From positions 1 to 10,000 of the forward strand of contig VSJD01000158.1 in the NCBI GenBank assembly GCA_008636095.1: a DNA stretch of 10,000 bases, written 5' to 3'. The notes beneath the pieces were generated by a model, which saw only the letters and a list, made by a program, of their open reading frames with translations, had not been told where the DNA came from and searched no databases. Made by a program: the position numbers and the translations under genes. Below, piece by piece: positions 1 to 10,000 of the stretch (the first letter of the stretch is position 1; every line of letters begins with the position of its first letter). The stretch is from Kiritimatiellota bacterium. GTDB taxonomy: Bacteria > Verrucomicrobiota > Kiritimatiellia > JAAZAB01.

Positions 1-275
1 GGCCGGTAACCATTGCCAGGTTGGGATATAGTGGCGATAATTATTTTCTTCATATGATGACCGGCACTGCCAAAACTCCGCTGAAGTGGGAAGAAGCCGG
101 CTGGGCGCCGCCCGCACCCCAGCTCCCCAGCCTGGAAATTGACTTTGATTCTGATCCGGATAGCTTCATTCAAAATGTTCTTGGACAACATTACATCCTT
201 GCTTACGGCGATCAGCGCGGGGTGTATCGGGACTTGTGCGCGCTCCTGGATATCAAACTGATTGGGGCGGGTTAA
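1..275 (+). CDS. L-fucose isomerase-like protein, C-terminal fragment (5' end outside window)
   Basis: The reading frame is open from base 3 to the TAA at 273-275, so this is the C-terminal ~90 residues of a gene that begins upstream of the window. The visible tail resembles the C-terminal domain of the L-fucose/L-arabinose isomerase superfamily: an 'ARLGYSGDNYFLHMMTG' strand region, a Trp/Pro-rich loop, then 'FIQNVLGQHYILAYGD' followed by 'LCALLDIKLI'. In this family the segment resembling HxxLxYGD carries a metal- or substrate-binding His. Such enzymes interconvert an aldose and a ketose in the cytoplasm using a divalent metal. The gene lies 27 bases before the UroD-like gene and probably shares its transcript. 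The catalytic Glu/Asp residues of the family would lie in the missing part, so activity and sugar specificity cannot be judged. A TTG at 21 could be read as a start, but the frame continues upstream with family-like sequence. Confidence 0.72.
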   Translation, partial: PVTIARLGYSGDNYFLHMMTGTAKTPLKWEEAGWAPPAPQLPSLEIDFDSDPDSFIQNVLGQHYILAYGDQRGVYRDLCALLDIKLIGAG

Positions 276-285
276 TCGCAAGCAA

Positions 286-291
286 AAGGAG
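286..291 (+). promoter_or_regulatory. Shine-Dalgarno site (AAGGAG) for the UroD-like gene
   Basis: AAGGAG lies 11 bases before the ATG at 303, in the 27-base gap after the upstream stop codon. It supports the start at 303. Confidence 0.7.
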
Positions 292-302
292 ATAAGCCTG
301 TT

Positions 303-1367
303 ATGGAACTGGAATTCAAAAAAGACTTCGATGAGGCGAGAAAAAACTGGGGTTTATTCTGGAAAGGCAAACTTAACCGTCCGATAATTCTGGCAATAAT
401 ACCCAAGCCCGGAAAAGACCCGGTCAGTCCCCCTAAGTTTGGCGAAGCGTTATACCGCAATCACGAAGACGTGGTGGACCAGGCATTGCGGTGGGCGGAA
501 AGCCATGAATTTCTTTGCGACATGGTTCCGGGTTTTACGCCTTCCTTGATGGTTAGTTTTTTCCCCGCCATCCTTGGTGCTGAAGTAATAGAAATTCATG
601 AAGCGTGGGGGGTGGACACGGCGGTCAGTCCCTTTGTCAAGGACCTTGGCAATGTAAATCTGAAATTCCGACGCGATTCCAAATGGTGGGAGCAATGGGT
701 CGCCCTTTGTGAATGCTTTAAGCGCAAGTGCGCGGGCCGGATTGTCTTTGGCGAAGCTTCGCTGGGGTATAATCTTGACACACTCGGCGCGATAAGAGGA
801 ACCACCGAACTGATGATGGATTTTTATGACAACCCCGAAGGAGTCCATAATGCGATGCGCCAGATTCTTGGAGCATACAATGAGGTAATAGACGAATATA
901 TACGGATTTTTGAATTTGAAAAGTATGGAGGGGTGACAAGGCACGGGTTCTATGCCGATGGATTAGTCGGCGTTCCGCAATGTGATTTCGGGTTCAGCAT
1001 CGGCAAGGAGCATTTTGATGAATTTGCCCTGCCTTACCTTAAAAAAGAGATAGAACGTCTGGATGCCGTGGAATATCACCTGGACGGTCCCGGAAATATT
1101 ATCCACGCGGAATCAATATGCTCCATAGATAAAATCGGAGTCGTCCAATGGGTGGCGGGTGCCGGTAACGAAAAAAAAGACTGGACCTGGCTTTATGAAA
1201 AGATCAACGCGCTGGGAAAAGGTTTGTGGCTCGGGGCGGCATCGCCCGAGGAGGCTGTAAGCCTGTGGAAAAAATACGCCAATTCGGGCAGAATGATATT
1301 AGGCGTGCACGCTGAAACTCGCGACGACGCTTTGCGTTACCTGGATGCTTTTGAAGCAATACGATAA
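303..1367 (+). CDS. Uroporphyrinogen decarboxylase (UroD)-fold family protein of unknown substrate
   Basis: This is a 354-residue soluble protein without a signal peptide or membrane segment. It resembles the diverse UroD/MtaA/CmuA-like superfamily (TIM-barrel proteins that include heme-synthesis decarboxylase and corrinoid methyltransferases). Supporting segments are 'LDTLGAIRGTTELMMDFYDNPE' in part (residues ~158-179), 'CDFGFSI..EHFDEFALPYLKK' (~227-248), 'YHLDGPGNIIH' (258-268) and 'VQWVAGAG' (281-288). Length is typical for UroD-like proteins. It is unlikely to be HemE itself: the N-terminal Arg-rich signature of HemE is not visible and the neighbours are sugar isomerases and kinases. A Cys at 227 and His at 259/268 are candidate ligands or active-site residues (inference). 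Distant UroD-like proteins often occur in carbohydrate or C1 gene clusters, where their role is unresolved. It starts 27 bases after the upstream gene and ends 16 bases before the next, so it is probably co-transcribed. Confidence 0.75.
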   Translation: MELEFKKDFDEARKNWGLFWKGKLNRPIILAIIPKPGKDPVSPPKFGEALYRNHEDVVDQALRWAESHEFLCDMVPGFTPSLMVSFFPAILGAEVIEIHEAWGVDTAVSPFVKDLGNVNLKFRRDSKWWEQWVALCECFKRKCAGRIVFGEASLGYNLDTLGAIRGTTELMMDFYDNPEGVHNAMRQILGAYNEVIDEYIRIFEFEKYGGVTRHGFYADGLVGVPQCDFGFSIGKEHFDEFALPYLKKEIERLDAVEYHLDGPGNIIHAESICSIDKIGVVQWVAGAGNEKKDWTWLYEKINALGKGLWLGAASPEEAVSLWKKYANSGRMILGVHAETRDDALRYLDAFEAIR

Positions 1368-1368
1368 A

Positions 1369-1374
1369 GAAAGG
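1369..1374 (+). promoter_or_regulatory. Shine-Dalgarno site (GAAAGG) that selects the start at 1384
   Basis: GAAAGG lies 9 bases before the ATG at 1384. An in-frame ATG at 1345 would overlap the preceding gene by 23 bases, has no purine-rich site close upstream and would add 13 non-conserved residues, so 1384 is preferred. Confidence 0.65.
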
Positions 1375-1383
1375 CCGGATTTC

Positions 1384-2778
1384 ATGAAACTCGCAAAAAT
1401 CGGATTGTTGCCGTTATACCTGGAACTGTATGACAAGATTTCCAAGCCCGGCCGTCGGAAGCCGCTTGAAGATTTTTACGATACCATTGCCGGCGTTCTG
1501 GCCCGGAAGGGAATAGAAGTTGTCAGGGCGCCGGTTTGCCGCCTTAAACCGGAATTTGCCGCGGCCGTAAAAAAGTTTGAAAAGGCAAACGTGGATGCGA
1601 TTGTCACTTTGCATCTGGCATATTCGCCTTCCTTGGAATCGGCGGAAGTGTTGGCGCGGACACGATTGCCGATAATTGTCCTGGATACAACCCCGGATTA
1701 TGATTTCGGTCCGTCCCAATCGTCGGACCGGATCATGTTCAACCACGGCATCCATGGCGTGCAGGATATGTGTAATCTGCTGATTCGCAACGCCAAACCG
1801 TTTGTAATTGAGGCCGGCCATTGGCAGCATTCCAATGTCCTGGATCGGGTCGTTGGTGGAATTCGTTCGGCGCGGATAGCTTCGGCTTTGCAACACAGCC
1901 GGGTTGGACAAATCGGCCAGGCTTTTGCCGGCATGGGTGATTTCTCCGTGCCGGTGGACGTATTGAAAAGAAAACTTGGAATCCAGACCGTGCCTTGCGA
2001 TTGCCGATACTTAAGCCGAATATGCAAATCTATCCCCGAACGGGACGTTGCCGCGGAAATAAAAAACAATGAACGGCAATTTACAATCCAGCCGGGAATT
2101 AAAAAAGCGCATCAGCGCTCGGCACGGATCGGGTTGGCAGTGCGCCGGTGGGTGGAGCAGGAAAAACTAACAGCCTTTACGGTTAATTTTCTGGATGTAA
2201 CGCGTAAGACCGGCCTGCCTACGGTGCCGTTCCTGGAGGCCAGTTTGGGTATGGCCCGCGGCATCGGTTATGCGGGGGAAGGTGACGTTATGACGGCGGC
2301 ACTGGTCGGAGCGTTGGCGTCTGTATTCCCCAAAACAACATTTGCCGAGATGTTCTGTCCGGATTGGAAAGGGCAAACAATTTTTCTCAGTCATATGGGC
2401 GAGGTGAATTCGAGCCTGTTGGCGGGCAAGCCTGCTTTGATGGAGTATCCATTCATTTTCGGGGATGTGGAAAATCCGGTCAAACCGGTCGGATGTCTGC
2501 GCGGAGGAAAAGCCGTTTTTGTTAATCTATCGCCATTGGCAGAGGATCGTTTCAGGTTGATTCTGGCTCCGGTTGCCATGAAGGCGGCAAAAGGAAAGGA
2601 CCGATTTTCAGATTCAGTCAGGGGGTGGATGAAACCGGTCCTGCAAATATCCGATTTTCTGGAAACTTACAGCCGCGCGGGCGGAACTCATCACGCGGCT
2701 TTAGTTTATGATGCTGACATGAATATCCTATCCGGATTTGGAGATTTAATGGGATGGGAAACGGTGGTGATCCAATAA
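1384..2778 (+). CDS. L-arabinose isomerase-like protein (AraA/FucI superfamily)
   Basis: A 464-residue cytoplasmic protein of the AraA-like isomerase superfamily, near the usual ~500-residue length. The four positions that bind metal and act in AraA can be matched by motif: Glu299 in 'YAGEGD' (296-301), Glu322 in 'TTFAEMF' (318-324), His337 in 'LSHMGEV' (335-341) and His436/His437 in 'AGGTHH' (432-437). The N-terminal part (1-200) has the alternating alpha/beta layout of the family, with 'VDAIVTLHLAYSPSLES' at ~70-86. It should therefore be a functional metal-dependent aldose-ketose isomerase. The sugar cannot be named, because many AraA-like proteins in sugar clusters act on other pentoses or deoxyhexoses. 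An FGGY kinase and a PfkB kinase follow, which fits isomerisation followed by phosphorylation. The gap to the preceding gene is 16 bases. The following gap is 126 bases and holds a repeat element. Confidence 0.82.
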   Translation: MKLAKIGLLPLYLELYDKISKPGRRKPLEDFYDTIAGVLARKGIEVVRAPVCRLKPEFAAAVKKFEKANVDAIVTLHLAYSPSLESAEVLARTRLPIIVLDTTPDYDFGPSQSSDRIMFNHGIHGVQDMCNLLIRNAKPFVIEAGHWQHSNVLDRVVGGIRSARIASALQHSRVGQIGQAFAGMGDFSVPVDVLKRKLGIQTVPCDCRYLSRICKSIPERDVAAEIKNNERQFTIQPGIKKAHQRSARIGLAVRRWVEQEKLTAFTVNFLDVTRKTGLPTVPFLEASLGMARGIGYAGEGDVMTAALVGALASVFPKTTFAEMFCPDWKGQTIFLSHMGEVNSSLLAGKPALMEYPFIFGDVENPVKPVGCLRGGKAVFVNLSPLAEDRFRLILAPVAMKAAKGKDRFSDSVRGWMKPVLQISDFLETYSRAGGTHHAALVYDADMNILSGFGDLMGWETVVIQ

Positions 2779-2904
2779 CATCCAAACCAAGCAAACGCCG
2801 AACATCCAACATCGAACGCTGAACATCGAAAGAAAACATTTCAGACACTTCAGCGTTGGGCGTTCGATCTTGGATGTTTTCTTCAGATTTCTTCATCTCA
2901 TGCC
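2779..2904. repeat. Intergenic inverted-repeat element of CCAACATCGAAC type
   Basis: This spacer interrupts an otherwise tight operon. It is built of iterated AACATC / CCAACATCGAAC words (2778-2830) followed by a reverse-complementary copy (2849-2878). Left arm 2801-2823 pairs with right arm 2849-2878 with one mismatch and one 7-base insertion (GGGCGTT, about 2858-2864) in the right arm; the loop is 2824-2848. No T-run follows the stem, so it is not a classical intrinsic terminator. Similar degenerate repeats are, to my recollection, scattered in large numbers in some PVC-type genomes, where they produce spurious 'SMLDVR'-like translations; the - strand here reads that way. It could fold in mRNA between the isomerase and kinase cistrons. 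Copy number must be tested genome-wide. Confidence 0.72.
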
Positions 2905-4368
2905 ATGAAAATAAAAAATGCATATCTTGGTCTTGATATTGGCGGCACCGGCGTGAAAGCTGGCGTGTTCAGCCGGGATGGAAAAATGCTTGCTTTCGTC
3001 CGGCGTTCGTTTCAGCCGACCGTTTCCGTGGACGGGCATGTTGATATTTCGATTGATGTTATTTATGAATCCGCCCGCAAAACCGTTCGTGAGGCCGTTA
3101 AAAAAAGCGGGGCAAAAATACTGGCCATGGCGGTTTCATCGCAGGGGGAAACATTTGTTACCCTGGATGCGAATGACCGTCCTCTGCATGACGCCATCAT
3201 GTGGTATGACAGCCGGGCAGGCAGGCAGGCAGGAGAATTATGCGCTACCGTGCAATCGGCCGTCGGCCGGAAACCTTCCATTGACGCGATTATGACGGTC
3301 TCTAAAATCAAATGGTTGCATGAAAATCGACCGGAATTAATGCGAAAAGCGCGGCGGTTTCTGCTTCTGCCGGATTATATTTCATACCGTCTGACCGGCC
3401 TGGCAGCGATTGACACTAATACCGCATCATCCACCGGTCTGTTGACGCCGGATGAGGATAAATATGATCCGGCCATTCTTAAGGCCGGCGGGATTGATTT
3501 GGCTCAGCTCTCAACAATTCTTATTCCCGGAACGCCAATCGGAAAAATATTAAAACCGGCGGCGGAAGAGTGGGGGCTTTCTACGAAAACACTTATGGTG
3601 GCCGGAACAAATGACCAATATGCCGGGGCGCTCGGTGCCGGAAACTGCCGCCCCGGCATCTTATCCGAAACAAGCGGAACCTGCCTGGCGCTGGTTACTT
3701 TGACCAGGAAACGGCCGCGTGGTTTGCCGGCGGGATTATTAAGCGGTAAATTTCCGCTTCCGTCTCACTGGTTTGTTCTGGCTTATTCCAAAACAGCCGG
3801 CCTTGTCCTTGACTGGTTCCGGAAGGAATGCGCGGGTGGCGCGAGCTTTGATGCCTTGAATGCGGAGGCGCGCACCGTGCCGATCGGATGCCGGGGGATA
3901 AGCATGGTGCCGCATTTCGACGGTATGATCTCGCCGCACCCGGACCCGGCCATGCGCGGGCGCTTCTGTAATCTGACGCTTCAGCACACGCGCGCCGACC
4001 TATACCGCTCCATCCTGGAAGCCCTGGCGTTCAGTCTGAGAGAAAACATGGAATGGATGCGCCAAAACGGACTTACCATTGAAACGATCAGGTGCATTGG
4101 CGGCGGGGCCAAAAACGAATTCTGGCTGCAAATGAAGGCGGATGTTACCGGCCAACCCGTGGAGCAGCCCGCCGTCACTGAGTCGGCCGTGCTGGGCGCC
4201 GCCATGCTGGCCGCTCGGGGCGCCGGCGCCTTCCCGTCGCTGGCGGAAACGAGCGCCGCATGGTATCGTGCCGGTCGCGTATTTGTCTGCGATAAGCAAG
4301 CCCATCAAGCCTATGACGAGCCCTACCGCCGGTATCAGACGTTGGTGACCAAACAGGTCGGGTGGTGA
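2905..4368 (+). CDS. FGGY-family carbohydrate kinase (xylulokinase-like)
   Basis: A 487-residue cytoplasmic sugar kinase that transfers the ATP gamma-phosphate to a sugar hydroxyl, most likely the ketose made by the upstream isomerase. The N-terminal phosphate-binding segment 'YLGLDIGGTGVKAGVF' is at residues 7-22. 'IMWYDSRA' (98-105) matches the FGGY substrate-binding region, and 'AGTNDQYAGALGAG' (233-246) carries Asp237, the probable catalytic base. The second FGGY domain has 'SETSGTC' (254-260) and 'CIGGGAKNEFWLQMKADVTG' (397-416), followed by 'ESAVLGAAMLA'. Length and motif order are normal for xylulokinase/glycerol kinase relatives, closest by eye to xylulokinase. The ATG at 2905 sits directly before the conserved segment, but no clear Shine-Dalgarno site precedes it; the repeat element ends 26 bases upstream. 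The stop is 10 bases before the PfkB gene. A GGCA tetranucleotide tract lies inside the gene at 3216-3233. Confidence 0.85.
   Translation: MKIKNAYLGLDIGGTGVKAGVFSRDGKMLAFVRRSFQPTVSVDGHVDISIDVIYESARKTVREAVKKSGAKILAMAVSSQGETFVTLDANDRPLHDAIMWYDSRAGRQAGELCATVQSAVGRKPSIDAIMTVSKIKWLHENRPELMRKARRFLLLPDYISYRLTGLAAIDTNTASSTGLLTPDEDKYDPAILKAGGIDLAQLSTILIPGTPIGKILKPAAEEWGLSTKTLMVAGTNDQYAGALGAGNCRPGILSETSGTCLALVTLTRKRPRGLPAGLLSGKFPLPSHWFVLAYSKTAGLVLDWFRKECAGGASFDALNAEARTVPIGCRGISMVPHFDGMISPHPDPAMRGRFCNLTLQHTRADLYRSILEALAFSLRENMEWMRQNGLTIETIRCIGGGAKNEFWLQMKADVTGQPVEQPAVTESAVLGAAMLAARGAGAFPSLAETSAAWYRAGRVFVCDKQAHQAYDEPYRRYQTLVTKQVGW
3216..3233 (+). repeat. (GGCA) tetranucleotide tract, 4.5 copies, inside the FGGY kinase gene
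   Basis: GGCAGGCAGGCAGGCAGG encodes part of the Arg-Ala-Gly-Arg-Gln-Ala-Gly stretch around residues 104-110. The unit is not a multiple of three, so gain or loss of one copy would shift the frame. It is short and may be chance. Confidence 0.6.
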
Positions 4369-4378
4369 TTATCTGATT

Positions 4379-5281
4379 ATGAAATCAAAGCAGATCAAGC
4401 TCCTGTCGTTTGGCGAGGTGTTATGGGACATCATTGACGATCAGGCGTATATTGGCGGAGCTCCTTTCAACCTTGCGGCGCATGCATCGCAATGTGGCCT
4501 GGATGCTTATCTGCTTACCTGCGTGGGTGCGGATGACTTAGGTCGGCGCGCACTGGCGGAAATCGACCGGATGAATGTGCATCGGCAATATGTTCAAACC
4601 GATCGTCAGCATCCAACCAGTACGGTTACGGTGAGATTGTCGGCTAAAGGGCAGCCGGCGTATGTCATTCACAAGAACGCAGCCTGGGATTTCGTTGATG
4701 TGCGCAAGGATATGATGGCCGGCCTGGTTGCCGAAAACTTCAATGTCGTATGCTTTGGTTCATTGGCACAGCGCGAAGCGCTTTCGCGGGCCAGCCTAAT
4801 GAGTGTTCTGGAAGCATTGAAAGGGGTGCCGACATTCTTCGATGTGAACTTGCGCCAGAACTACTATTCGCGTGAACTGCTGACGGCCAGCCTGCAGCGG
4901 GCCACTGTTTTGAAGCTTAACGACAGCGAGGTTAAGATCATCGCTGATTTGCTCTTTGGCCGGAATATGACCGCAACGGAGTTTGCACGGGCTATACAGG
5001 GCAAGTTTCCGGTTCGCGTGATATTGATAACCATGGGGGCGAAAGGATGTGCGCTAACCGAAGGCGGGTCCGTCGAAATATGTCCGGTTCGCCAGGTCGC
5101 AGTTGTTGACACGGTTGGCGCCGGGGATGCTTTTTCCGCAGCTTTTCTGGCCGGCTGGTTGCGTGGCAAAACGGCAATTGAAGCAGCCACCATGGGGAAT
5201 TTGCTGGGGGCTTTTGTGGCTTCCCGACGCGGCGCCATTCCGGATTATGACAACGAAATCCGCCGTTGGCTGGGTTTATAG
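4379..5281 (+). CDS. PfkB-family carbohydrate kinase (fructokinase-like)
   Basis: A 300-residue ribokinase/PfkB-fold kinase, a typical length for fructokinases. The N-terminal substrate-binding region reads 'FGEVLWDII..IGGAPFNLAAHASQCG' (residues 11-40), which matches PfkB signature 1 with its GG pair (26-27). 'FFDVNLRQNYYS' (153-164) and 'KLNDSEVK' (179-186) follow. Signature 2, 'DTVGAGDAFSAAFLAGWL' (244-261), contains the anion hole and the catalytic base Asp250. 'GEVLWD' and 'GGAPFN' are seen in bacterial fructokinases, so a ketohexose such as fructose is a reasonable but unproven substrate. The gene starts 10 bases after the FGGY kinase stop; no strong ribosome site is visible, and translation may be coupled. 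It is the last gene of the + strand sugar cluster, followed 14 bases later by a perfect palindrome. A second kinase of a different fold in the same cluster suggests two substrates or two consecutive steps. Confidence 0.86.
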   Translation: MKSKQIKLLSFGEVLWDIIDDQAYIGGAPFNLAAHASQCGLDAYLLTCVGADDLGRRALAEIDRMNVHRQYVQTDRQHPTSTVTVRLSAKGQPAYVIHKNAAWDFVDVRKDMMAGLVAENFNVVCFGSLAQREALSRASLMSVLEALKGVPTFFDVNLRQNYYSRELLTASLQRATVLKLNDSEVKIIADLLFGRNMTATEFARAIQGKFPVRVILITMGAKGCALTEGGSVEICPVRQVAVVDTVGAGDAFSAAFLAGWLRGKTAIEAATMGNLLGAFVASRRGAIPDYDNEIRRWLGL

Positions 5282-5295
5282 CGGCAGTATGATTT

Positions 5296-5331
5296 TGACA
5301 TTCCAACATTCTGCAGAATGTTGGAATGTCA
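5296..5331. repeat. Perfect 36-bp palindrome between convergent genes
   Basis: Every base from 5296 to 5313 pairs with its counterpart from 5331 back to 5314 (18-base arms, no loop, centre CTGCAG). It is composed of ATTCCAACATTC and its complement. It lies 14 bases after the PfkB stop and 56 bases beyond the Top6A stop, where a bidirectional terminator might sit, but neither side has a proper T-run (TTT on the + side, AAAATC read outward on the other). It may therefore be a dispersed palindromic repeat, a protein-binding site, or an RNA 3'-end stabiliser. The CCAACAT word is shared with the element at 2779-2904. Confidence 0.9.
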
Positions 5332-5387
5332 TTTCAGTACGGGGGGCGGACGGAGAGCGGATTGTCGTCGGTCAAAAAAAACAGACC
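5332..5387. other. Short spacer with G6 and A8 tracts
   Basis: The stretch between the palindrome and the Top6A stop holds a G6 run (5341-5346) and an A8 run (5374-5381). Read on the - strand, the latter is a T8 run just after the Top6A stop, with only weak stem potential before it. No gene is seen. Confidence 0.5.
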
Positions 5388-6539
5388 CTACGGCAGGAAG
5401 GCGCCTTTCTTCAACTTGGCGGGCAGGTATTTTTCCAACACGTAATTCAGCCCGTGCTTGGCAAAGGCCTGTTGTTCGATACGCACCCCCATGGTCAGCA
5501 TCTGGTTGAGCGCCGCCTGCCATTCCTTGAAGTGTTTGATGAAGGGATCGTTTTTCAGCGCGTCCTTGGCGCGCTTGACGTCATTTTCCTCCAGCGGGTG
5601 GGTGGCGTCTTCGAGGTCGTAGTCCAGGATGTCCTGCGGCGTCACGCCCAGGTAATGGACGCGCGGCACGCAGAAGAACTGATTGATATGCGCCGCCTGG
5701 CCGGAGCCGACTTTCAGCGTCCGGTAGATGTTGCAGTAACCATAGGGGTCGCCGTCGGTAAAGGCGAATACCGGCAGATCCTTGTCATCCGACAGGCGCC
5801 GGATGAAGCGCCGGCAGGCGCGCGTGGGCACGCCGCTCATGGAAACCAGGACGCAATTGGCGCTCTCGTAATAGCGGTGGTGGACGAGCCGCTGAAAAAG
5901 CGAGGCCGTTTCAATGGCCAGGATGAATTTGGCCTTCGATTCGAAACGCAGGTGCTCAACCTGCGAGGGAATACTCCACGCACCCGTGCCCAGCTTCTCG
6001 CAGTTAATGCGGATATCGCCGCCGGTACCGGGATCGCGGTCAATTACCGTGACCGGGCCGGTCACTTCGCCGCCGCGTTCCTCGGGGATATAGCCTAACT
6101 GTTCCCGGTTGATGCCCAGCATGGCTTCCATGTCGTCCAGCAGGGAATCGCTTTCGGGCTGTTCGTCGAACCGGCATTCGCCCCAGCTTTTGCTATTATA
6201 ATAAATCTCGCGCTTACCCGCGATATCGTCTTTATCCAGGAGATCCTTCTTGGTCGTGGCCATGAGCCGCATGGACTGGGCAAACGTTTTCACCGTGTTG
6301 TAGGAAAGCGTGCGCGTGGCCACCTTCTTGAGAATCTCGAAATGCCCCTTCTTGGGATCGTACTTGACGTTGCTCAGCGAGCGGACAGGAAACCGCATCG
6401 TGGGCCGCGCGTTCTTGCGGATGATGTCGGCATAAACATCCTGGGCAACGGCGACGATCTTTCCGGAGGCACATTTCCGGGTCACTGCCTCCGGAGCGGT
6501 CGGCTTGGTCTGCACCTGTTCATGTTTTGTTTTCGCCAT
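5388..6539 (-). CDS. top6A: DNA topoisomerase VI subunit A (Spo11-like)
   Basis: A 383-residue protein, close to archaeal Top6A length. With the B subunit it forms an A2B2 type IIB topoisomerase that makes transient double-strand breaks to relax and decatenate DNA. The winged-helix (5Y-CAP) domain contains 'GKREIYYNSKSW' (108-119); the second Tyr (Tyr114) aligns with the catalytic Tyr of Spo11/Top6A. The TOPRIM domain follows: 'FILAIETASLFQRL' (205-218) gives metal-binding Glu210, and 'FTDGDPYGYCNIY' (260-272) gives Asp262 and Asp264. 'SGVPTRACRRFIRRL' (235-249) is also family-like. The N-terminal ~25 residues are polar and probably flexible. The start at 6539 is supported by AAGGAAAG at 6543-6550. 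It is encoded 47 bases downstream of top6B in the archaeal order B-A, so the two are probably one transcript. All catalytic residues are present. It is convergent with the sugar operon. Confidence 0.95.
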   Translation of the reverse strand: MAKTKHEQVQTKPTAPEAVTRKCASGKIVAVAQDVYADIIRKNARPTMRFPVRSLSNVKYDPKKGHFEILKKVATRTLSYNTVKTFAQSMRLMATTKKDLLDKDDIAGKREIYYNSKSWGECRFDEQPESDSLLDDMEAMLGINREQLGYIPEERGGEVTGPVTVIDRDPGTGGDIRINCEKLGTGAWSIPSQVEHLRFESKAKFILAIETASLFQRLVHHRYYESANCVLVSMSGVPTRACRRFIRRLSDDKDLPVFAFTDGDPYGYCNIYRTLKVGSGQAAHINQFFCVPRVHYLGVTPQDILDYDLEDATHPLEENDVKRAKDALKNDPFIKHFKEWQAALNQMLTMGVRIEQQAFAKHGLNYVLEKYLPAKLKKGAFLP

Positions 6540-6586
6540 AATCTTTCCTTGCCTTCAGTCCACGGCCTACAGCCCACAGTCAGTCT
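6540..6586 (-). repeat. top6B-top6A spacer with GACTGTGGGCTGTAGGC-type repeat and top6A ribosome site
   Basis: Read on the - strand, bases 6583-6551 are a run of degenerate heptamer-like words (GACTGTG, GGCTGTA, GGCCGTG, GACTGAA, GGC). AAGGAAAG (6543-6550) follows immediately and serves as the Shine-Dalgarno site for top6A. A similar run (AGGCTATAGGTTGAAGGC) precedes lepB at 8906-8923. Such low-complexity spacers look like members of a dispersed family, which is inferred from two copies here. Confidence 0.5.
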
Positions 6587-8359
6587 TCACGTTTCCAAAT
6601 GCGTGCGCTCCAGCATCTTGTGCAGTTTATTGACGATCTGCGTTTCCTGCTTCGCGGTGAGCGCCAGGATCTCGCGCAGGCCCAGCGCCAGGTGCGGCAG
6701 GTACATCTCGATAAAGTTGCGCTTGCGCTCCAGTTCGGCCTGGCGCCGGCGCCGGCTCAGAAACACGGAAAGCCGCCGGCCGCACTCCTGGAGCGCAAAA
6801 GTCATTTCGCGGATGATCTCCGGGTAATGGGCAATGGCTTCCTTGCTTTCGCTGGTGAATGGCACCCACACGCTGGCAATATGGATCAGGATGACCACCG
6901 GACCTAGCGGCACGGCATCGCGCGGCTGGGCCAGGCCGTAGCTCTTCCAGTTGACGCCCGTCATGGCCTTGATCATGGCGCAGGCACCGCCCATGTAGAG
7001 CAGTGGCACCTTGTTGGCAAAACGCAGGACTCGAACGGGATCCTCGACGTTAATTTCCGCGTTTTCGCCAGGCTTGGCGTAGGCGATGCCGACTTCGATC
7101 TGGAACGGATTGCCGCGATAGACTTCCGGACTGCGCGTAACGGCCGTATAAAAATCAGCGGTAATCTCCTTCTTAAGTCCGGCCAGGATCTGCTCCTCAC
7201 CGATGGGCGAGAGGCAATCGGTTGGCGGGCGCATCAGCTTGGCCTCGCCGATGGCCTTAAAGAGGGCCTCGCTTTCACGGTGGGCAATGTGGGTGGGTCG
7301 CGCCTTGGGATCCAGGGCGGCGCGCTGACAAATTTCCGCTGCCGCGCGGTCGCTGACGCGCGAAAAGTCATTTACAAGCGCGGACTTGAGCGTCTTGGCC
7401 GTAGTATCCTTCAGCATCTGCATCAGCATGCCCAGCTCGACACCGTGGGGATGCGGCTTAATTTCCAGAGGCTGTTTCGGCAGATCGCGGGTGCCGCGTT
7501 CGAAAGTAATCCAGGCGGCAACAGCCGCTCCGGCGGCAACGGCCGCACCGGCGGCGTCCGCCGGTTTTTTATCGTTTGCGGGCGTTTCGGCCCCTTGCCC
7601 CTTGCCGTTGCCATTGGCCGCTCCGGCGGTGCCAGCCGTGCTAACGGCTTCGAGCACCGTGATGCGGTAATGCAGGCACAAATGCGGATTCACAATCGCG
7701 CATTGTTTGAGATATTCATCGGCGGATAATTTGCCGCGTACATAGGCGGCCTCCATCTCGATGGATACGCACGTGCCCTGGGAGTATTCCTTGCTGAGCT
7801 GGGGCGTGCCATCCGGGGCGGCCGTAAAAAACTGGGGATGCCATTCCAGTTCCTCATCCTTCAGGATCGTCGGCTTGTTGGCGCGGGTGTCAATCTGGAC
7901 TTCGATATGATGAGCTTTTTTGCCGGTCTTGATTTTGGATTGAATCAGGGTGGCGGTGCCCGTGGTGAGCTGGCCGTACATGCCGGCCGCGCTGATACCG
8001 ATACCCTGCTGGCCGCGCGACATGCGCAGGCGATGAAATTTGGAGCCGTAAAGCAGTTTTGCAAAAATTTTCGGTACCTGGGCGCGGACGATGCCGGGGC
8101 CGTTATCCAGGACCGTGACACGAAACCGGCGCGCGCCGGTTTGCGCTATCTCCACGCTGATTTCAGGCAGGATGCCGGCCTCGTCGCAGGCATCCAGTGA
8201 ATTGTCCACCGCCTCCTTGACGGTCGTGAGCAAGGCCTTGCGCGGATTATCGAAGCCGAGCAGGTGACGATTCTTGAGAAAAAATTCAGAGACGGCGATT
8301 TCCCGCTGACTATGTGCCATGCTTTCGGCCGTAGCCAGGGTTTGCTTGGAGTGCGCCAT
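6587..8359 (-). CDS. top6B: DNA topoisomerase VI subunit B (GHKL ATPase)
   Basis: A 590-residue ATPase subunit that dimerises on ATP binding and drives strand passage by Top6A. The N-terminal strap is 'REIAVSEFFLKNRHLLGFDNPRKAL' in part (19-43). The GHKL domain has 'KEAVDNSLDACDE' (48-60; Glu49 probable general base, Asn53 Mg-binding), 'LDNGPGI' (84-90) and 'GQQGIGISAAGMYGQ' (116-130). An H2TH-like helical region (~303-350) follows. The transducer domain has 'RFANKVPLLY' (446-455), where Lys450 matches the ATP-contacting switch Lys. Residues ~237-281 are an Ala/Gly/Asn/Lys-rich insertion absent from typical archaeal proteins as I know them, placed in a strand pair near the end of the ATPase domain. 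The tail is rich in Arg/Lys (535-546). AAGGAA at 8368-8373 supports the start at 8359; a second 'MAHS' at residue 14 is a less likely start. The gene is divergent from infA. Confidence 0.95.
   Translation of the reverse strand: MAHSKQTLATAESMAHSQREIAVSEFFLKNRHLLGFDNPRKALLTTVKEAVDNSLDACDEAGILPEISVEIAQTGARRFRVTVLDNGPGIVRAQVPKIFAKLLYGSKFHRLRMSRGQQGIGISAAGMYGQLTTGTATLIQSKIKTGKKAHHIEVQIDTRANKPTILKDEELEWHPQFFTAAPDGTPQLSKEYSQGTCVSIEMEAAYVRGKLSADEYLKQCAIVNPHLCLHYRITVLEAVSTAGTAGAANGNGKGQGAETPANDKKPADAAGAAVAAGAAVAAWITFERGTRDLPKQPLEIKPHPHGVELGMLMQMLKDTTAKTLKSALVNDFSRVSDRAAAEICQRAALDPKARPTHIAHRESEALFKAIGEAKLMRPPTDCLSPIGEEQILAGLKKEITADFYTAVTRSPEVYRGNPFQIEVGIAYAKPGENAEINVEDPVRVLRFANKVPLLYMGGACAMIKAMTGVNWKSYGLAQPRDAVPLGPVVILIHIASVWVPFTSESKEAIAHYPEIIREMTFALQECGRRLSVFLSRRRRQAELERKRNFIEMYLPHLALGLREILALTAKQETQIVNKLHKMLERTHLET
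7514..7651 (-). other. Low-complexity Ala/Gly-rich insertion in Top6B
   Basis: This codes for residues ~237-282, between 'HYRITVLEA' and 'WITFERGTRDLP', which would normally be joined by a short turn. It is rich in Ala and Gly, with a charged centre (GKGQGAETPANDKKPAD) and an imperfect 'GAAVAAGAAVAA' repeat. The DNA is GC-rich with repeated GCGGC-type words, consistent with expansion by slippage. Confidence 0.75.
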
Positions 8360-8367
8360 AGGATGAG

Positions 8368-8373
8368 TTCCTT
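8368..8373 (-). promoter_or_regulatory. Shine-Dalgarno site (AAGGAA) for top6B
   Basis: On the - strand AAGGAA lies 8 bases before the ATG at 8359. It favours that start over the in-frame ATG 13 codons later. Confidence 0.7.
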
Positions 8374-8448
8374 AAAAAATCGGGGTGATTATGGCAGCAC
8401 CGGTTGTGAATGCAAGCCTGGATTTGGCGTGGTTTCACGGTGGGTGTA

Positions 8449-8477
8449 GGATAAATTATTTGGTGATAACTGGGCAA
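8449..8477 (-). promoter_or_regulatory. Possible sigma-70-type promoter for top6BA
   Basis: On the - strand TTGCCC (8477-8472) and TTATCC (8454-8449) are separated by 17 bases, about 90 bases before the top6B start. Each hexamer differs from consensus at two or three positions, so this is a weak, unverified candidate. Confidence 0.25.
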
Positions 8478-8610
8478 GGTATATTGACGGGGCAGATGCA
8501 ACGGGGAATATTACCTCCGAATGCTGTGGTCCCCATTGTGCCAAAATAATGCTTGCGTCAGGGTGGTTTTCTGGCAGTATTCACTCGATATTGACAAATA
8601 AACGGGCATA

Positions 8611-8615
8611 AAGGA
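8611..8615 (+). promoter_or_regulatory. Shine-Dalgarno site (AAGGA) for infA
   Basis: AAGGA lies 10 bases before the ATG at 8626 and supports that start. Confidence 0.65.
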
Positions 8616-8625
8616 CGGTTCTTAT

Positions 8626-8859
8626 ATGGCAGACGCACCCAGTCCAAAAGAAGAGGTCATCCGCGCGGATGGTATCGTGGTCAAGGTTCTGCCGGCGACG
8701 ATGTACCGGGTGAAGCTTCAGACCGGCGGCGAAATCCTGGCGCATATTTCCGGCAAGATGCGCAAGCATTTCATCAAGATTTCCACCGGGGATAAAGTCA
8801 CGCTCGAAATTTCCCCCTACGATCTCTCCAAAGGCCGGATCGTCTTCCGGCAGAAATAG
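8626..8859 (+). CDS. infA: Translation initiation factor IF-1
   Basis: A 77-residue single-domain OB-fold protein that binds the 30S A site during initiation, with IF-2 and IF-3. The conserved core is unmistakable: '[18 protein letters not shown]' (14-31), '[16 protein letters not shown]' (37-52), '[21 protein letters not shown]' in part (55-75). Bacterial IF-1 is usually about 72 residues; the extra residues are in the N-terminal '[11 protein letters not shown]', which replaces the usual 'MAKEDV'-type start. A good ribosome site precedes the ATG. It is followed 93 bases later by lepB on the same strand, separated by a palindromic spacer, so the two may or may not share a transcript. IF-1 is usually found in ribosomal-protein operons; here it stands outside such an operon within the visible range. 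Some bacteria encode more than one infA copy, so this might be the only one or a paralogue. Confidence 0.96.
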
Positions 8860-8874
8860 AGTGCCCGGTTTGTT

Positions 8875-8935
8875 TTCCGCCACAGGCGGATCCGCCTTCG
8901 GTGGAAGGCTATAGGTTGAAGGCTGTTGGCCCTAA
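8875..8935. repeat. Palindromic GGCGGATCCGCC element followed by AGGCTATAGGTTGAAGGC repeat
   Basis: Bases 8875-8906 form a near-palindrome of 32 bases centred on GGATCC. They can also fold as two small adjacent hairpins: TCCGCC-ACA-GGCGGA (8876-8890) and TCCGCC-TTC-GGTGGA (8891-8905, one G-T pair). Bases 8906-8930 then carry the words AGGCTAT, AGGTTGA and AGGCTGTTGGC, similar to the spacer between top6B and top6A. It lies 15 bases after infA. There is no T-run after the stem, so termination of infA is possible but not clear. Confidence 0.65.
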
Positions 8936-8936
8936 A

Positions 8937-8941
8937 AAGGA
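8937..8941 (+). promoter_or_regulatory. Shine-Dalgarno site (AAGGA) that selects the lepB start at 8953
   Basis: AAGGA lies 11 bases before the ATG at 8953. An in-frame TTG at 8926 lies inside the repeat and would place this site within the coding region, so it is rejected as the start. Confidence 0.65.
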
Positions 8942-8952
8942 TAAGTGACAAA

Positions 8953-9651
8953 ATGAAAAAAACGTTCGCTTTCTATTGCAAATATATTTGGGATGGATGG
9001 GTTCGTGAAATTATTGTTATGTTGGCAATCATGATTCCGTTTCGATCATCGATTGCGGATTGGTATCATGTGCCTACCGGATCTATGAAACCAAGCATCT
9101 TGGAATGCGAGCGGGTTTTTGTAAACAAACTGGCCTACGACCTAAAAATTCCTTTGACGACATGGCATCTTGCTGAGTGGGGAAATCCTGAGCGTGGAGA
9201 TATTGTGGTTTTTTATTCGCCTGCCGACCAGAAACGATTAGTCAAACGTGTAATTGGACTGCCGGGTGATGTTGTGGAAATGAGGAGTAATCATCTGGTA
9301 ATCAATGGTCAGTCGGCCGAATATCTTCCGCTTGACCCACGCTTTGTGACAGACCTGTCGGCAGAAGAACGCACAGGGGAAACCTTCGCTGTCGAACGGT
9401 ACGGCAACCTGGATCACCCCGTAATGGCAATCCCTTCCTTGCCTGCCAAGCGCTCTTTTGGGCCAATAACAATACCGGAAAATTCCTATTTAATGCTTGG
9501 TGATAACCGTGACAACAGCGCAGATTCCCGCTTCTTTGGATTTGTTGAGAGAGGCAGGATCGTTGGCAGGACATCTACTGTGGTCGCATCATTTGACCCC
9601 GATAATTTCTATCTTCCCCGCTGGGACAGATGGTTCAAAAGATTGCCATAA
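8953..9651 (+). CDS. lepB: Signal peptidase I (type I leader peptidase, S26 family)
   Basis: A 232-residue membrane-anchored serine protease that removes signal peptides from exported proteins at the outer face of the cytoplasmic membrane. One N-terminal membrane segment spans roughly residues 18-36. Box B 'VPTGSMKPSI' (40-49) holds the nucleophile Ser44. Box D 'RLVKRVIGLPGD' (95-106) holds the general base Lys98. Box E 'LGDNRDNSADSRFFGFV' (182-198) completes the S26 core. The stretch between boxes D and E (about residues 107-180) forms the variable beta-sheet region, including 'HLVINGQ'. All catalytic parts are intact. Base composition looks more AT-rich than the topo VI genes: 23 of 60 bases at 9001-9060 are G or C against 43 of 60 at 6901-6960, though these are small samples. 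It follows infA by 93 bases and is convergent with the DUF4160 gene. Confidence 0.95.
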   Translation: MKKTFAFYCKYIWDGWVREIIVMLAIMIPFRSSIADWYHVPTGSMKPSILECERVFVNKLAYDLKIPLTTWHLAEWGNPERGDIVVFYSPADQKRLVKRVIGLPGDVVEMRSNHLVINGQSAEYLPLDPRFVTDLSAEERTGETFAVERYGNLDHPVMAIPSLPAKRSFGPITIPENSYLMLGDNRDNSADSRFFGFVERGRIVGRTSTVVASFDPDNFYLPRWDRWFKRLP

Positions 9652-9677
9652 GAGCGGTCAACCAGCGTCTTATGGCA
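9644..9677. terminator. Inverted repeat at the lepB 3' end (possible terminator)
   Basis: TGCCATAAGA (9644-9653) is perfectly complementary to TCTTATGGCA (9668-9677), with a 14-base loop. The stem includes the lepB stop codon and lies between two convergent genes. No T-run follows on either side, so intrinsic termination is uncertain. Confidence 0.35.
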
Positions 9678-9717
9678 TCTACCTGCTGCAGAAGGCCGCA
9701 TCGATGAAGGCGAGCTT

Positions 9718-9978
9718 TTATCGAAGCGGCTCAATTTTTTCTATCGGTCGCTGTTTTTCCGCTCTGCACCAGTCGTCAAGCAGTTCATGTTGATGCAGTG
9801 TGGCCCACTCGATGACGAGACCCAGTGCCCTGGGTGAAAGGCGCCCGGCAAACAGCGCGAGGGACGTAATATCAATCAAGGCTTCCTCGTCCGCATAGAT
9901 GGCATGAAAATGGGGAGGATTATGATCATCCCAGAACATTTTGATCACAATGCCGAAGAATCTGCAGATTTCAGGCAT
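9718..9978 (-). CDS. DUF4160 domain protein
   Basis: A small soluble protein of 86 residues from the ATG at 9978, the usual size for the DUF4160 family. The family signature is clear: 'MPEICRFFGIVIKMF' at the N-terminus, then 'DDHNPPHFHAIYADEEALIDI', with the conserved HNPPHFH block. The latter half, 'LSPRALGLVIEWATLHQHELLDDW', is also typical. DUF4160 genes are often paired with DUF2442 genes and have been suggested to belong to toxin-antitoxin-like modules, but no biochemical role is firmly known. No DUF2442 partner fits in the 66 bases between this gene and lepB; one could lie beyond the window. The start at 9978 is chosen because family members begin with MPxI; a GAGATGG stretch lies just upstream. 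An ATG at 9990 would add four residues (MRWL). The gene is convergent with lepB and is probably a mobile accessory gene. Confidence 0.85.
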   Translation of the reverse strand: MPEICRFFGIVIKMFWDDHNPPHFHAIYADEEALIDITSLALFAGRLSPRALGLVIEWATLHQHELLDDWCRAEKQRPIEKIEPLR

Positions 9979-10000
9979 AAGCCATCTCATGCTTTAAGGC

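Follow-up and report, generated by a model that had tools for sequence, protein, structure and literature searches.

The window analysed here, a stretch of 10,000 nucleotides of a Kiritimatiellota bacterium (assembly GCA_008636095.1, contig VSJD01000158.1, positions 1-10,000, forward strand), encodes a complete topoisomerase VI (topo VI) with its catalytic residues. The genome from which it comes keeps gyrase, and neither subunit of topoisomerase IV (topo IV), ParC or ParE, was found in that genome, which is 87% complete. Within the class to which the host belongs, topo IV is missing mostly where topo VI is present, a pattern that suggests, short of proof, a handover from topo IV to topo VI. 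We give roughly even chances to the reading that topo VI functionally replaced topo IV in the lineage of the window, an old acquisition of DPANN-like affinity having taken over decatenation and eased repeated loss of topo IV. We claim that topo VI raised the likelihood of losing topo IV in this class and do not claim that the loss requires it.

The two genes lie on the minus strand, top6B (8359-6587) followed by top6A (6539-5388) with a gap of 47 bases. A complete top6B-top6A operon had been proposed in a first-pass annotation made from the letters of the window, and both open reading frames were found where it placed them, encoding 590 and 383 amino acids, respectively, with Pfam matches above cut-off. 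The features of the locus are the following:

5388..6539, minus strand: top6A, topoisomerase VI subunit A, 383 amino acids, winged-helix domain and TOPRIM (open reading frame; Pfam PF04406, PF20768 and PF21180; matches to 1d3y and 2q2e_A)
6587..8359, minus strand: top6B, topoisomerase VI subunit B, 590 amino acids, GHKL ATPase, H2TH and transducer regions (open reading frame; PF02518, PF09239, PRK04184 and 2q2e_B)
6540..6586, minus strand: spacer between top6B and top6A, 47 bases, with AAGGAAAG right before the ATG of top6A, resembling a ribosome-binding site (read from the sequence)
6198..6200, minus strand: codon of the catalytic Tyr114 of Top6A, in REIYY (Tyr in 96/96)
5910..5912, minus strand: codon of the TOPRIM Glu210 of Top6A (Glu in 96/96)
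5748..5756, minus strand: codons of the TOPRIM DxD motif of Top6A, Asp262 and Asp264 (Asp in 96/96 at both)
8201..8215, minus strand: GHKL N-box of Top6B, Glu49 to Asn53 (Glu49, Asp52 and Asn53 identical in 50 of 71 rows, the other 21 being gaps)
6842..6844, minus strand: codon of the switch lysine Lys506 of Top6B, in SESKEAI (aligned with S. shibatae Lys427)
7511..7642, minus strand: Ala/Gly-rich linker insert in the GHKL-domain hairpin of Top6B, about residues 240-283 (unaligned to M. mazei, query 228-285)
8626..8859, plus strand: infA, bacterial translation initiation factor IF-1, divergent neighbour, given for context (library matches)

The identity of both proteins is supported by several libraries. 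Top6A matched the Pfam models TOP6A-Spo11_Toprim (189.1 bits, cut-off 24.1), Topo_VI_alpha (54, cut-off 23.6) and TP6A_N (48.4, cut-off 26), and Top6B matched Topo-VIb_trans (193, cut-off 24) and HATPase_c (39.2, cut-off 26.4). Top6B also passed the cut-off of 274 bits of NCBIfam PRK04184.1 with a score of 634.5 bits; the best score of Top6A against the PRK04342 models, 460.4 bits, is under their cut-offs (675 for the best model). Among solved structures, Top6A matched those of M. jannaschii (1d3y, E 1.6e-108), M. mazei (2q2e_A, E 7.5e-60) and S. shibatae (2zbk), the last of which was also matched by Top6B. The alignment of Top6B with the M. mazei subunit (2q2e_B, E 2.8e-137) covers residues 10-228 and 285-576 of the query, the latter segment corresponding to residues 219-505 of the 621 of M. 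mazei Top6B. H2TH and transducer regions, which separate topo VI-B from topo VIB-like subunits, are present by sequence alignment, and the length of the protein leaves no room for an Ig-like C-terminal domain of the M. mazei type. The hairpin of the GHKL domain is long: the span from NPH to LP is 38-73 residues in the 23 Top6B of the window's clade where this pattern was found, versus 22-26 in five from DPANN.

Residue conservation was assessed in alignments of 96 Top6A, including that of the window, and 71 Top6B. The Tyr114 candidate and the TOPRIM acids named in the first-pass annotation were upheld, given that Tyr114, Glu210, Asp262 and Asp264 are identical in all 96 sequences. Tyr114 also aligns with the solved topo VI A subunits, and Top6A has the TP6A_N match. 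For Top6B, 21 of the 71 rows are gapped at the N-terminal boxes because of extraction limits; the residues of the N, G1 and G2 boxes are identical in all 50 rows having letters there, and the putative G3 residue Thr196 is Thr in 50, Arg in 1 and a gap in 20. The GHKL motifs proposed earlier therefore stand, and the proposed switch lysine does not. Lys450 lies within FANKVPL, where Arg occurs in 62 of the 71 Top6B, Lys in 7 and a gap in 2, and was ruled out. The position belongs instead to Lys506, which is Lys in 70 of 71 rows (a gap in the other) and aligns with Lys427 of S. shibatae Top6B, which we take to be the switch lysine of that enzyme. As judged from these sequences, the enzyme is very likely catalytically competent.

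NCBIfam models and GenBank records name the Top6A of this clade (5388-6539 of the window; P0002, P0010 and P0045) “DNA topoisomerase IV subunit A.” Because of this name, counts of topo IV taken from annotation would report it falsely as present.

The host is a bacterium of the Kiritimatiellota type. Its genome comprises 3.8 Mb in 357 contigs, with 0.4% contamination, and the window is contig C11. The closest named loci among the matches listed are metagenome-assembled genomes of Kiritimatiellae or Kiritimatiellaeota, with Top6A 95-96% identical; these two loci (L034 and L035) are contigs of 128 and 165 kb that carry the same top6 pair, with infA beside top6B. The first-pass annotation had asked whether topo VI acts beside or instead of gyrase or topo IV and had proposed a check for gyrA/gyrB and parC/parE. 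This check showed one GyrA-family and one GyrB-family gene, both on contig C234, so that a role instead of topo IV is a real question. The host GyrA carries the GyrA box QRRGGKG, which is found in none of 15 ParC proteins. A ParC profile (A1) built from these 15 proteins of the window's class, against which near-full-length ParC scores about 900-1200 bits, matched only GyrA in the host genome, at 229 bits, and the single GyrB-family gene leaves no candidate for ParE. Four members of the window's family that are 93-96% complete (G142, G368, G071 and G288) agree: the open frames of both top6 genes are full-length, and no ParC or second GyrB-family gene was found. This supports the call for the less complete host genome.

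Topo VI had been described as chiefly archaeal and eukaryotic and as patchy in bacteria, and its distribution here is indeed patchy. A search of 387 genomes across the phylum gave Top6A scores above cut-off in 51, every one of them a member of the window's class, so Top6A is far from uniformly present in the phylum. In the 193 genomes of the class, topo VI (either subunit) was found in 91, with Top6A above cut-off in 85 and Top6B in 88; both subunits were found in 82, Top6A only in 3 and Top6B only in 6, and the sub-cut-off Top6A matches of G278 and G450 were excluded from the counts. Topo IV was scored as present if ParC matched with at least 280 bits or if two GyrB-family genes were found. 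In 15 genomes of the class the GyrA copies scored 539-556 bits and the second GyrA-family copies formed a separate group at 333-363 bits; in the four of the 15 where these second genes were scanned, all were topo IV subunit A (NF007209 above cut-off). Genomes were called good at a completeness of 90% or more and a contamination of 5% or less, a standard that 117 of the class reach. Topo VI is accompanied by topo IV in 28 of these, by ParC in 26 and by a second GyrB alone in G104 and G409. Among the 24 good genomes with topo VI only, 22 have both top6 genes, G053 has top6B only and G222 top6A only. By Top6A alone, 2 of 67 good genomes would have gyrase only; the Top6B search moved G053 to the topo VI carriers, leaving G168. 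Both topo IV and topo VI are missing from 13 genomes of the class (G245, G399, G441 and ten others), 12 of which are less than 90% complete.

The loss of topo IV is associated with topo VI. In the good genomes topo IV is missing from 24 of 52 with topo VI versus 1 of 65 without it (Fisher test, p 1.4e-9), and in all 193 genomes from 46 of 91 versus 13 of 102. The same is seen when good genomes are grouped by size: 12 of 19 versus 0 of 25 up to 3.05 Mb, 9 of 18 versus 1 of 16 between 3.05 and 4.05 Mb, and 3 of 15 versus 0 of 24 above 4.05 Mb. Since the association holds at matched genome size, streamlining alone is not enough as an explanation.

Fisher tests ignore shared ancestry. The losses were also placed on a midpoint-rooted tree of GyrA and GyrB from 95 hand-chosen genomes of the 193, and on a 77-row subset of it that holds 76 of the 117 good genomes and G000 and omits 38 of the 64 topo IV-only, 2 of the 28 topo IV plus topo VI and 1 of the 24 topo VI-only genomes. 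If loss is irreversible, the 77 rows require seven losses of topo IV, all of them within clades carrying topo VI; one such clade also holds G168, without topo VI, joined in the 95-row tree by G441 (85% complete), likewise without it. The 95 rows require 11 losses, two of which are single genomes without topo VI, G245 (89% complete) and G399 (85% complete). A model in which the rate of loss depends on topo VI did better than one with an independent rate: with topo IV at the root and no regain, the likelihood ratios are 13.8 (p 0.0002) for 77 rows and 7.97 (p 0.005) for 95 rows. With regain allowed the ratio for 77 rows is 5.40 (p 0.02). ParC distances follow those of gyrase (Mantel r 0.735, 15 genomes), and vertical inheritance of topo IV with losses is therefore favoured over regain.

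Several observations weigh against replacement. With regain allowed, the tree test on 95 rows gives a likelihood ratio of 3.78 and p 0.052. A test on independent pairs gave a median p of 1 in 8 pairs, in which topo VI seldom differs, so that it is ill suited to a directional question. The rate of Top6A relative to that of gyrase is not slower where topo IV is missing (Mann-Whitney p 0.13, 13 versus 15 genomes). More than half of the good topo VI genomes, 28 of 52, retain topo IV. In the window's own family, one of ten genomes, G400 (68% complete), has a ParC-grade match and no topo VI was found in it; this ParC is at most 62% identical to the 15 class ParC proteins compared and could represent either topo IV that was kept or a mistake in binning. 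Another family member, G393 (88% complete), has a second GyrB-family match without ParC.

A further point concerns interrupted top6 genes. Both genes are intact in the window. Absence of topo IV does not always go with an intact topo VI: interruptions were found in four of the 24 good genomes that have topo VI only. In G121 (3.1 Mb in two contigs; locus L226) both top6A and top6B are frame-broken with stops while the gyrase genes are whole, an apparent case of decay. G074 (L227) has an intact top6A and a top6B degraded into several frames with stops; in G180 (L229) the frame of top6B changes near residue 373; and in G347 (L230) top6B consists of two pieces in the same frame about 320 bases apart. 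These interruptions may reflect decay, sequencing error or, in G347, a split gene. A further interrupted top6B occurs in G386 (86% complete; L234), which keeps topo IV. In G398, which by its code (g16) shares the genus of G074, both top6 genes are unbroken and the gyrase frames are broken, perhaps from sequencing error. Frames were read closely in G121, G074, G180, G347, G386, G056 and G398, the other good genomes being judged by open-frame length. On this basis short top6B frames occur in none of the 28 good genomes with both enzymes versus 4 of the 24 with topo VI only (p 0.039). Strict essentiality of topo VI would predict the reverse. When interrupted genes are counted as absent, topo IV is missing in 20 of 48 good genomes with topo VI versus 5 of 69 without (p 1.6e-5). 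With this scoring the tree test with regain gives p 1.0 on 77 rows and 0.73 on 95 rows, and that without regain gives 0.005 and 0.086, G386 also being counted as lacking topo VI in the 95 rows. A further step, to gyrase alone, seems to occur in some lineages. Because of the interrupted genes, our confidence in replacement was lowered from fairly likely to evenly balanced, that in a replacement series fell from even to somewhat below even, and that in gyrase alone as the rival rose from rather unlikely to a serious possibility.

The phylogeny called for in the first-pass annotation was run for Top6A, with 71 rows drawn from homologues among the matches listed plus one solved-structure chain. 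The 35 sequences of the clade form one group (support 100/100), whose partners in a wider group (99/98) are Planctomycetota, one Deltaproteobacteria bin and three unnamed sequences. This wider group sits within a Woesearchaeota/Nanoarchaeota grade, with Methanococcales outside. In this tree of listed matches the placement fits a DPANN-like archaeal affinity of the genes at the level of a group, not of one donor. It also fits the picture of two clusters of bacterial topo VI, one near Methanococcales and the other near DPANN and Euryarchaeota, drawn in the consulted part of Allen and Maxwell 2024 (PMC11302465). That the 35 Top6A form one group roughly following gyrase argues for one old acquisition, not a recent odd transfer. 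Inside the class Top6A appears to have been inherited mostly by family, not strictly vertically: its distances correlate with those of gyrase (Mantel r 0.55), and families f1, f3, f4, f10, f11 and f16 are recovered as clades, unlike f8. Strict vertical descent was ruled out by an approximately unbiased test, which rejects the gyrase topology (28 genomes, p 0.003).

The replacement reading can be put as a sequence of steps. Some ancestor inside the class would have gained top6 genes from a source of DPANN-like archaeal affinity, directly or via another bacterium. Topo VI would have coexisted with topo IV, which would then have been lost several times, the window's family included, and in a few lineages topo VI would later have decayed, leaving gyrase alone. 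The product of the locus would be an A2B2 type IIB enzyme, in which Top6B takes up ATP and clamps a second duplex while Top6A cuts the first through Tyr114, with a metal held by E210, D262 and D264, and lets the second duplex pass. Gyrase would supply negative supercoiling, and topo VI would carry out the decatenation and unknotting of chromosomes that is the job of topo IV in most bacteria. The proposed decatenation role draws on the distribution and on what is known of the archaeal enzyme's biochemistry. In vitro, M. mazei topo VI acts preferentially as a decatenase (McKie et al. 2022; PMC8837201, in the part consulted), and it complements an E. coli parE-ts mutant, as unpublished data mentioned in the consulted part of PMC11302465. 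An easing of topo IV loss by topo VI would likewise be read from the distribution.

The main rival to replacement is that gyrase alone decatenates in members without topo IV, topo VI serving elsewhere (positive supercoils, stress or repair) and the loss being incidental. We regard this as a serious possibility, although below even chances. Gyrase alone can suffice, as just one GyrA-family gene was found, without Top6A above cut-off, in 37 of 256 genomes that lie outside the class and belong to 15 families; Top6A above cut-off was found in none of the 256, and the search there covered Top6A only. In thirteen families outside the class (f45, f47, f49, f53, f56, f59, f61, f62, f64, f69, f73, f74 and f75) every sampled genome is of this apparently gyrase-only kind. 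The four good topo VI-only genomes with interrupted genes may already live on gyrase, as G168 seems to, and by open-frame length topo VI is unbroken beside topo IV in all 28 good genomes with both. Against this explanation stands that, within the class, loss without topo VI is so rare, also at matched genome size, and that the imbalance persists when interrupted genes count as absent.

The correlation itself could be an artefact of incomplete assemblies and shared ancestry, with topo IV present and unassembled. Many genomes of the class are fragmented, that of the window is incomplete, nearly all of the 13 genomes without both enzymes fall below 90% completeness, and the tree test with regain is lost once interrupted genes count as absent. 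However, the association is stronger in the good genomes, the four nearly complete members of the window's family lack ParC and a second GyrB-family gene, and topo IV is missing also from genomes in 2, 5 and 10 contigs (G121, G398 and G056, the last with both top6 genes uninterrupted). Moreover, random gaps would be expected equally often in genomes without topo VI, and we consider an artefact improbable. A complex that only cuts DNA, either Spo11-like or a defence nuclease, is less probable still. In its favour, Spo11 is a homologue of Top6A, the nuclease component of MksBEFG/Wadjet/Gabija systems is built from Top6 homologues (PMC13040014, in the part consulted), and weak PADLOC JetD matches (23.6 and 20.9 bits) lie over the TOPRIM region of Top6A. 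Top6B nevertheless aligns over the GHKL, H2TH and transducer regions, with the N, G1 and G2 boxes and the switch lysine intact, whereas topo VIB-like subunits are without H2TH according to the consulted part of PMC11302465, and no further PADLOC match was obtained among the ten proteins of the window. An archaeal contig, or a chimera binned into a bacterium, can practically be discarded: the top6 genes are archaeal in affinity, but the bacterial infA and lepB are adjacent, the near-identical loci lie on the two long bacterial contigs described above, and 91 of the 193 genomes of the class carry top6 genes.

If replacement is correct, the class would be a living replacement series (topo IV only, both, topo VI only and gyrase only) in which one enzyme eased about seven losses and the topo VI-only lineages segregate their chromosomes with a type IIB enzyme. 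We put this forward tentatively, with somewhat less than even confidence. With all the states on one class tree, two questions can be put to the test: can bacterial chromosome decatenation pass to an archaeal type IIB enzyme, and can gyrase alone follow topo VI?

The enzyme resembles the archaeal topo VI of M. mazei, S. shibatae and M. jannaschii in its domains, catalytic tyrosine, TOPRIM acids, GHKL boxes and switch lysine. It differs from them in its host, a bacterium with gyrase, and in the longer hairpin linker of the GHKL domain, and from M. mazei Top6B in having, by its length, no Ig-like C-terminal domain. In archaea gyrase and topo VI have been argued to divide labour (PMC9348778, in the part consulted). 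The proposed cellular job, decatenation of sister chromosomes, is that of topo IV (ParC/ParE), which is a type IIA enzyme of other architecture and was not found in the host genome. With the meiotic complex of Spo11 and topo VIB-like subunits the enzyme shares a homologous A subunit, but its B subunit has, by alignment, the make-up of a full topo VI-B, H2TH region included, with intact ATPase motifs. The topo VI of Planctomycetota (Phycisphaerae and others) is the nearest outgroup of the clade in the Top6A tree, with Top6A 60-65% identical across the nine planctomycete loci listed.

The consulted part of Allen and Maxwell 2024 (PMC11302465) classifies the type II enzymes of 17 bacteria with topo VI. 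The 17 families of its figure 6 include no Verrucomicrobiota or Kiritimatiellota, and its planctomycete families are also without topo IV, unlike the class of the window, where topo IV is often retained beside topo VI. The same part places the set of gyrase, topo IV and topo VI exclusively in Pseudomonadota and Terrabacteria, a range that the 28 good genomes with all three extend. It also concludes that topo VI need not go together with a lack of topo IV, and describes the bacterial role of topo VI as open. In the open literature we found no paper joining topoisomerase VI and Kiritimatiell-, and two are listed that join it with Verrucomicrobi-. The enzyme itself is known; the replacement series appears to be unreported.

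The gene next to the operon had been taken for bacterial IF-1. Its identity was confirmed (NCBIfam TIGR00008, 103.1 bits), and the implied link to the operon was not: infA is divergent, on the strand opposite to the top6 pair like the other bacterial gene nearby, lepB, and stands beside top6B in only 2 of 80 loci (L034 and L035) among the matches listed, many of which end early. It was ruled out as an operon member. A third gene kept throughout between top6B and top6A was also ruled out, from ten loci inspected. By eye, a similar-looking gene lies there in L049, L055, L056 and L070; the genes differ in L040, L043, L060 and L081, only doubtful frames are seen in L063, and L113 has no frame of at least 90 amino acids. 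The two top6 genes are on separate contigs in G007, G020, G047, G059, G267 and G398, and the pair seems to have been split apart more than once.

The rest of the window holds unrelated genes. A sugar cluster occupies 303-5281 on the plus strand, with an unassigned protein of 354 amino acids, an arabinose-isomerase-like protein, an FGGY kinase that is nearest to XylB and below the XylB cut-off, and a PfkB-family kinase. At 9718-9990 lies a DUF4160 protein similar to DhiT, the toxin in a type II toxin-antitoxin system; the match is under the NCBIfam cut-off (68.6 versus 100 bits), and no partner was identified in the window.

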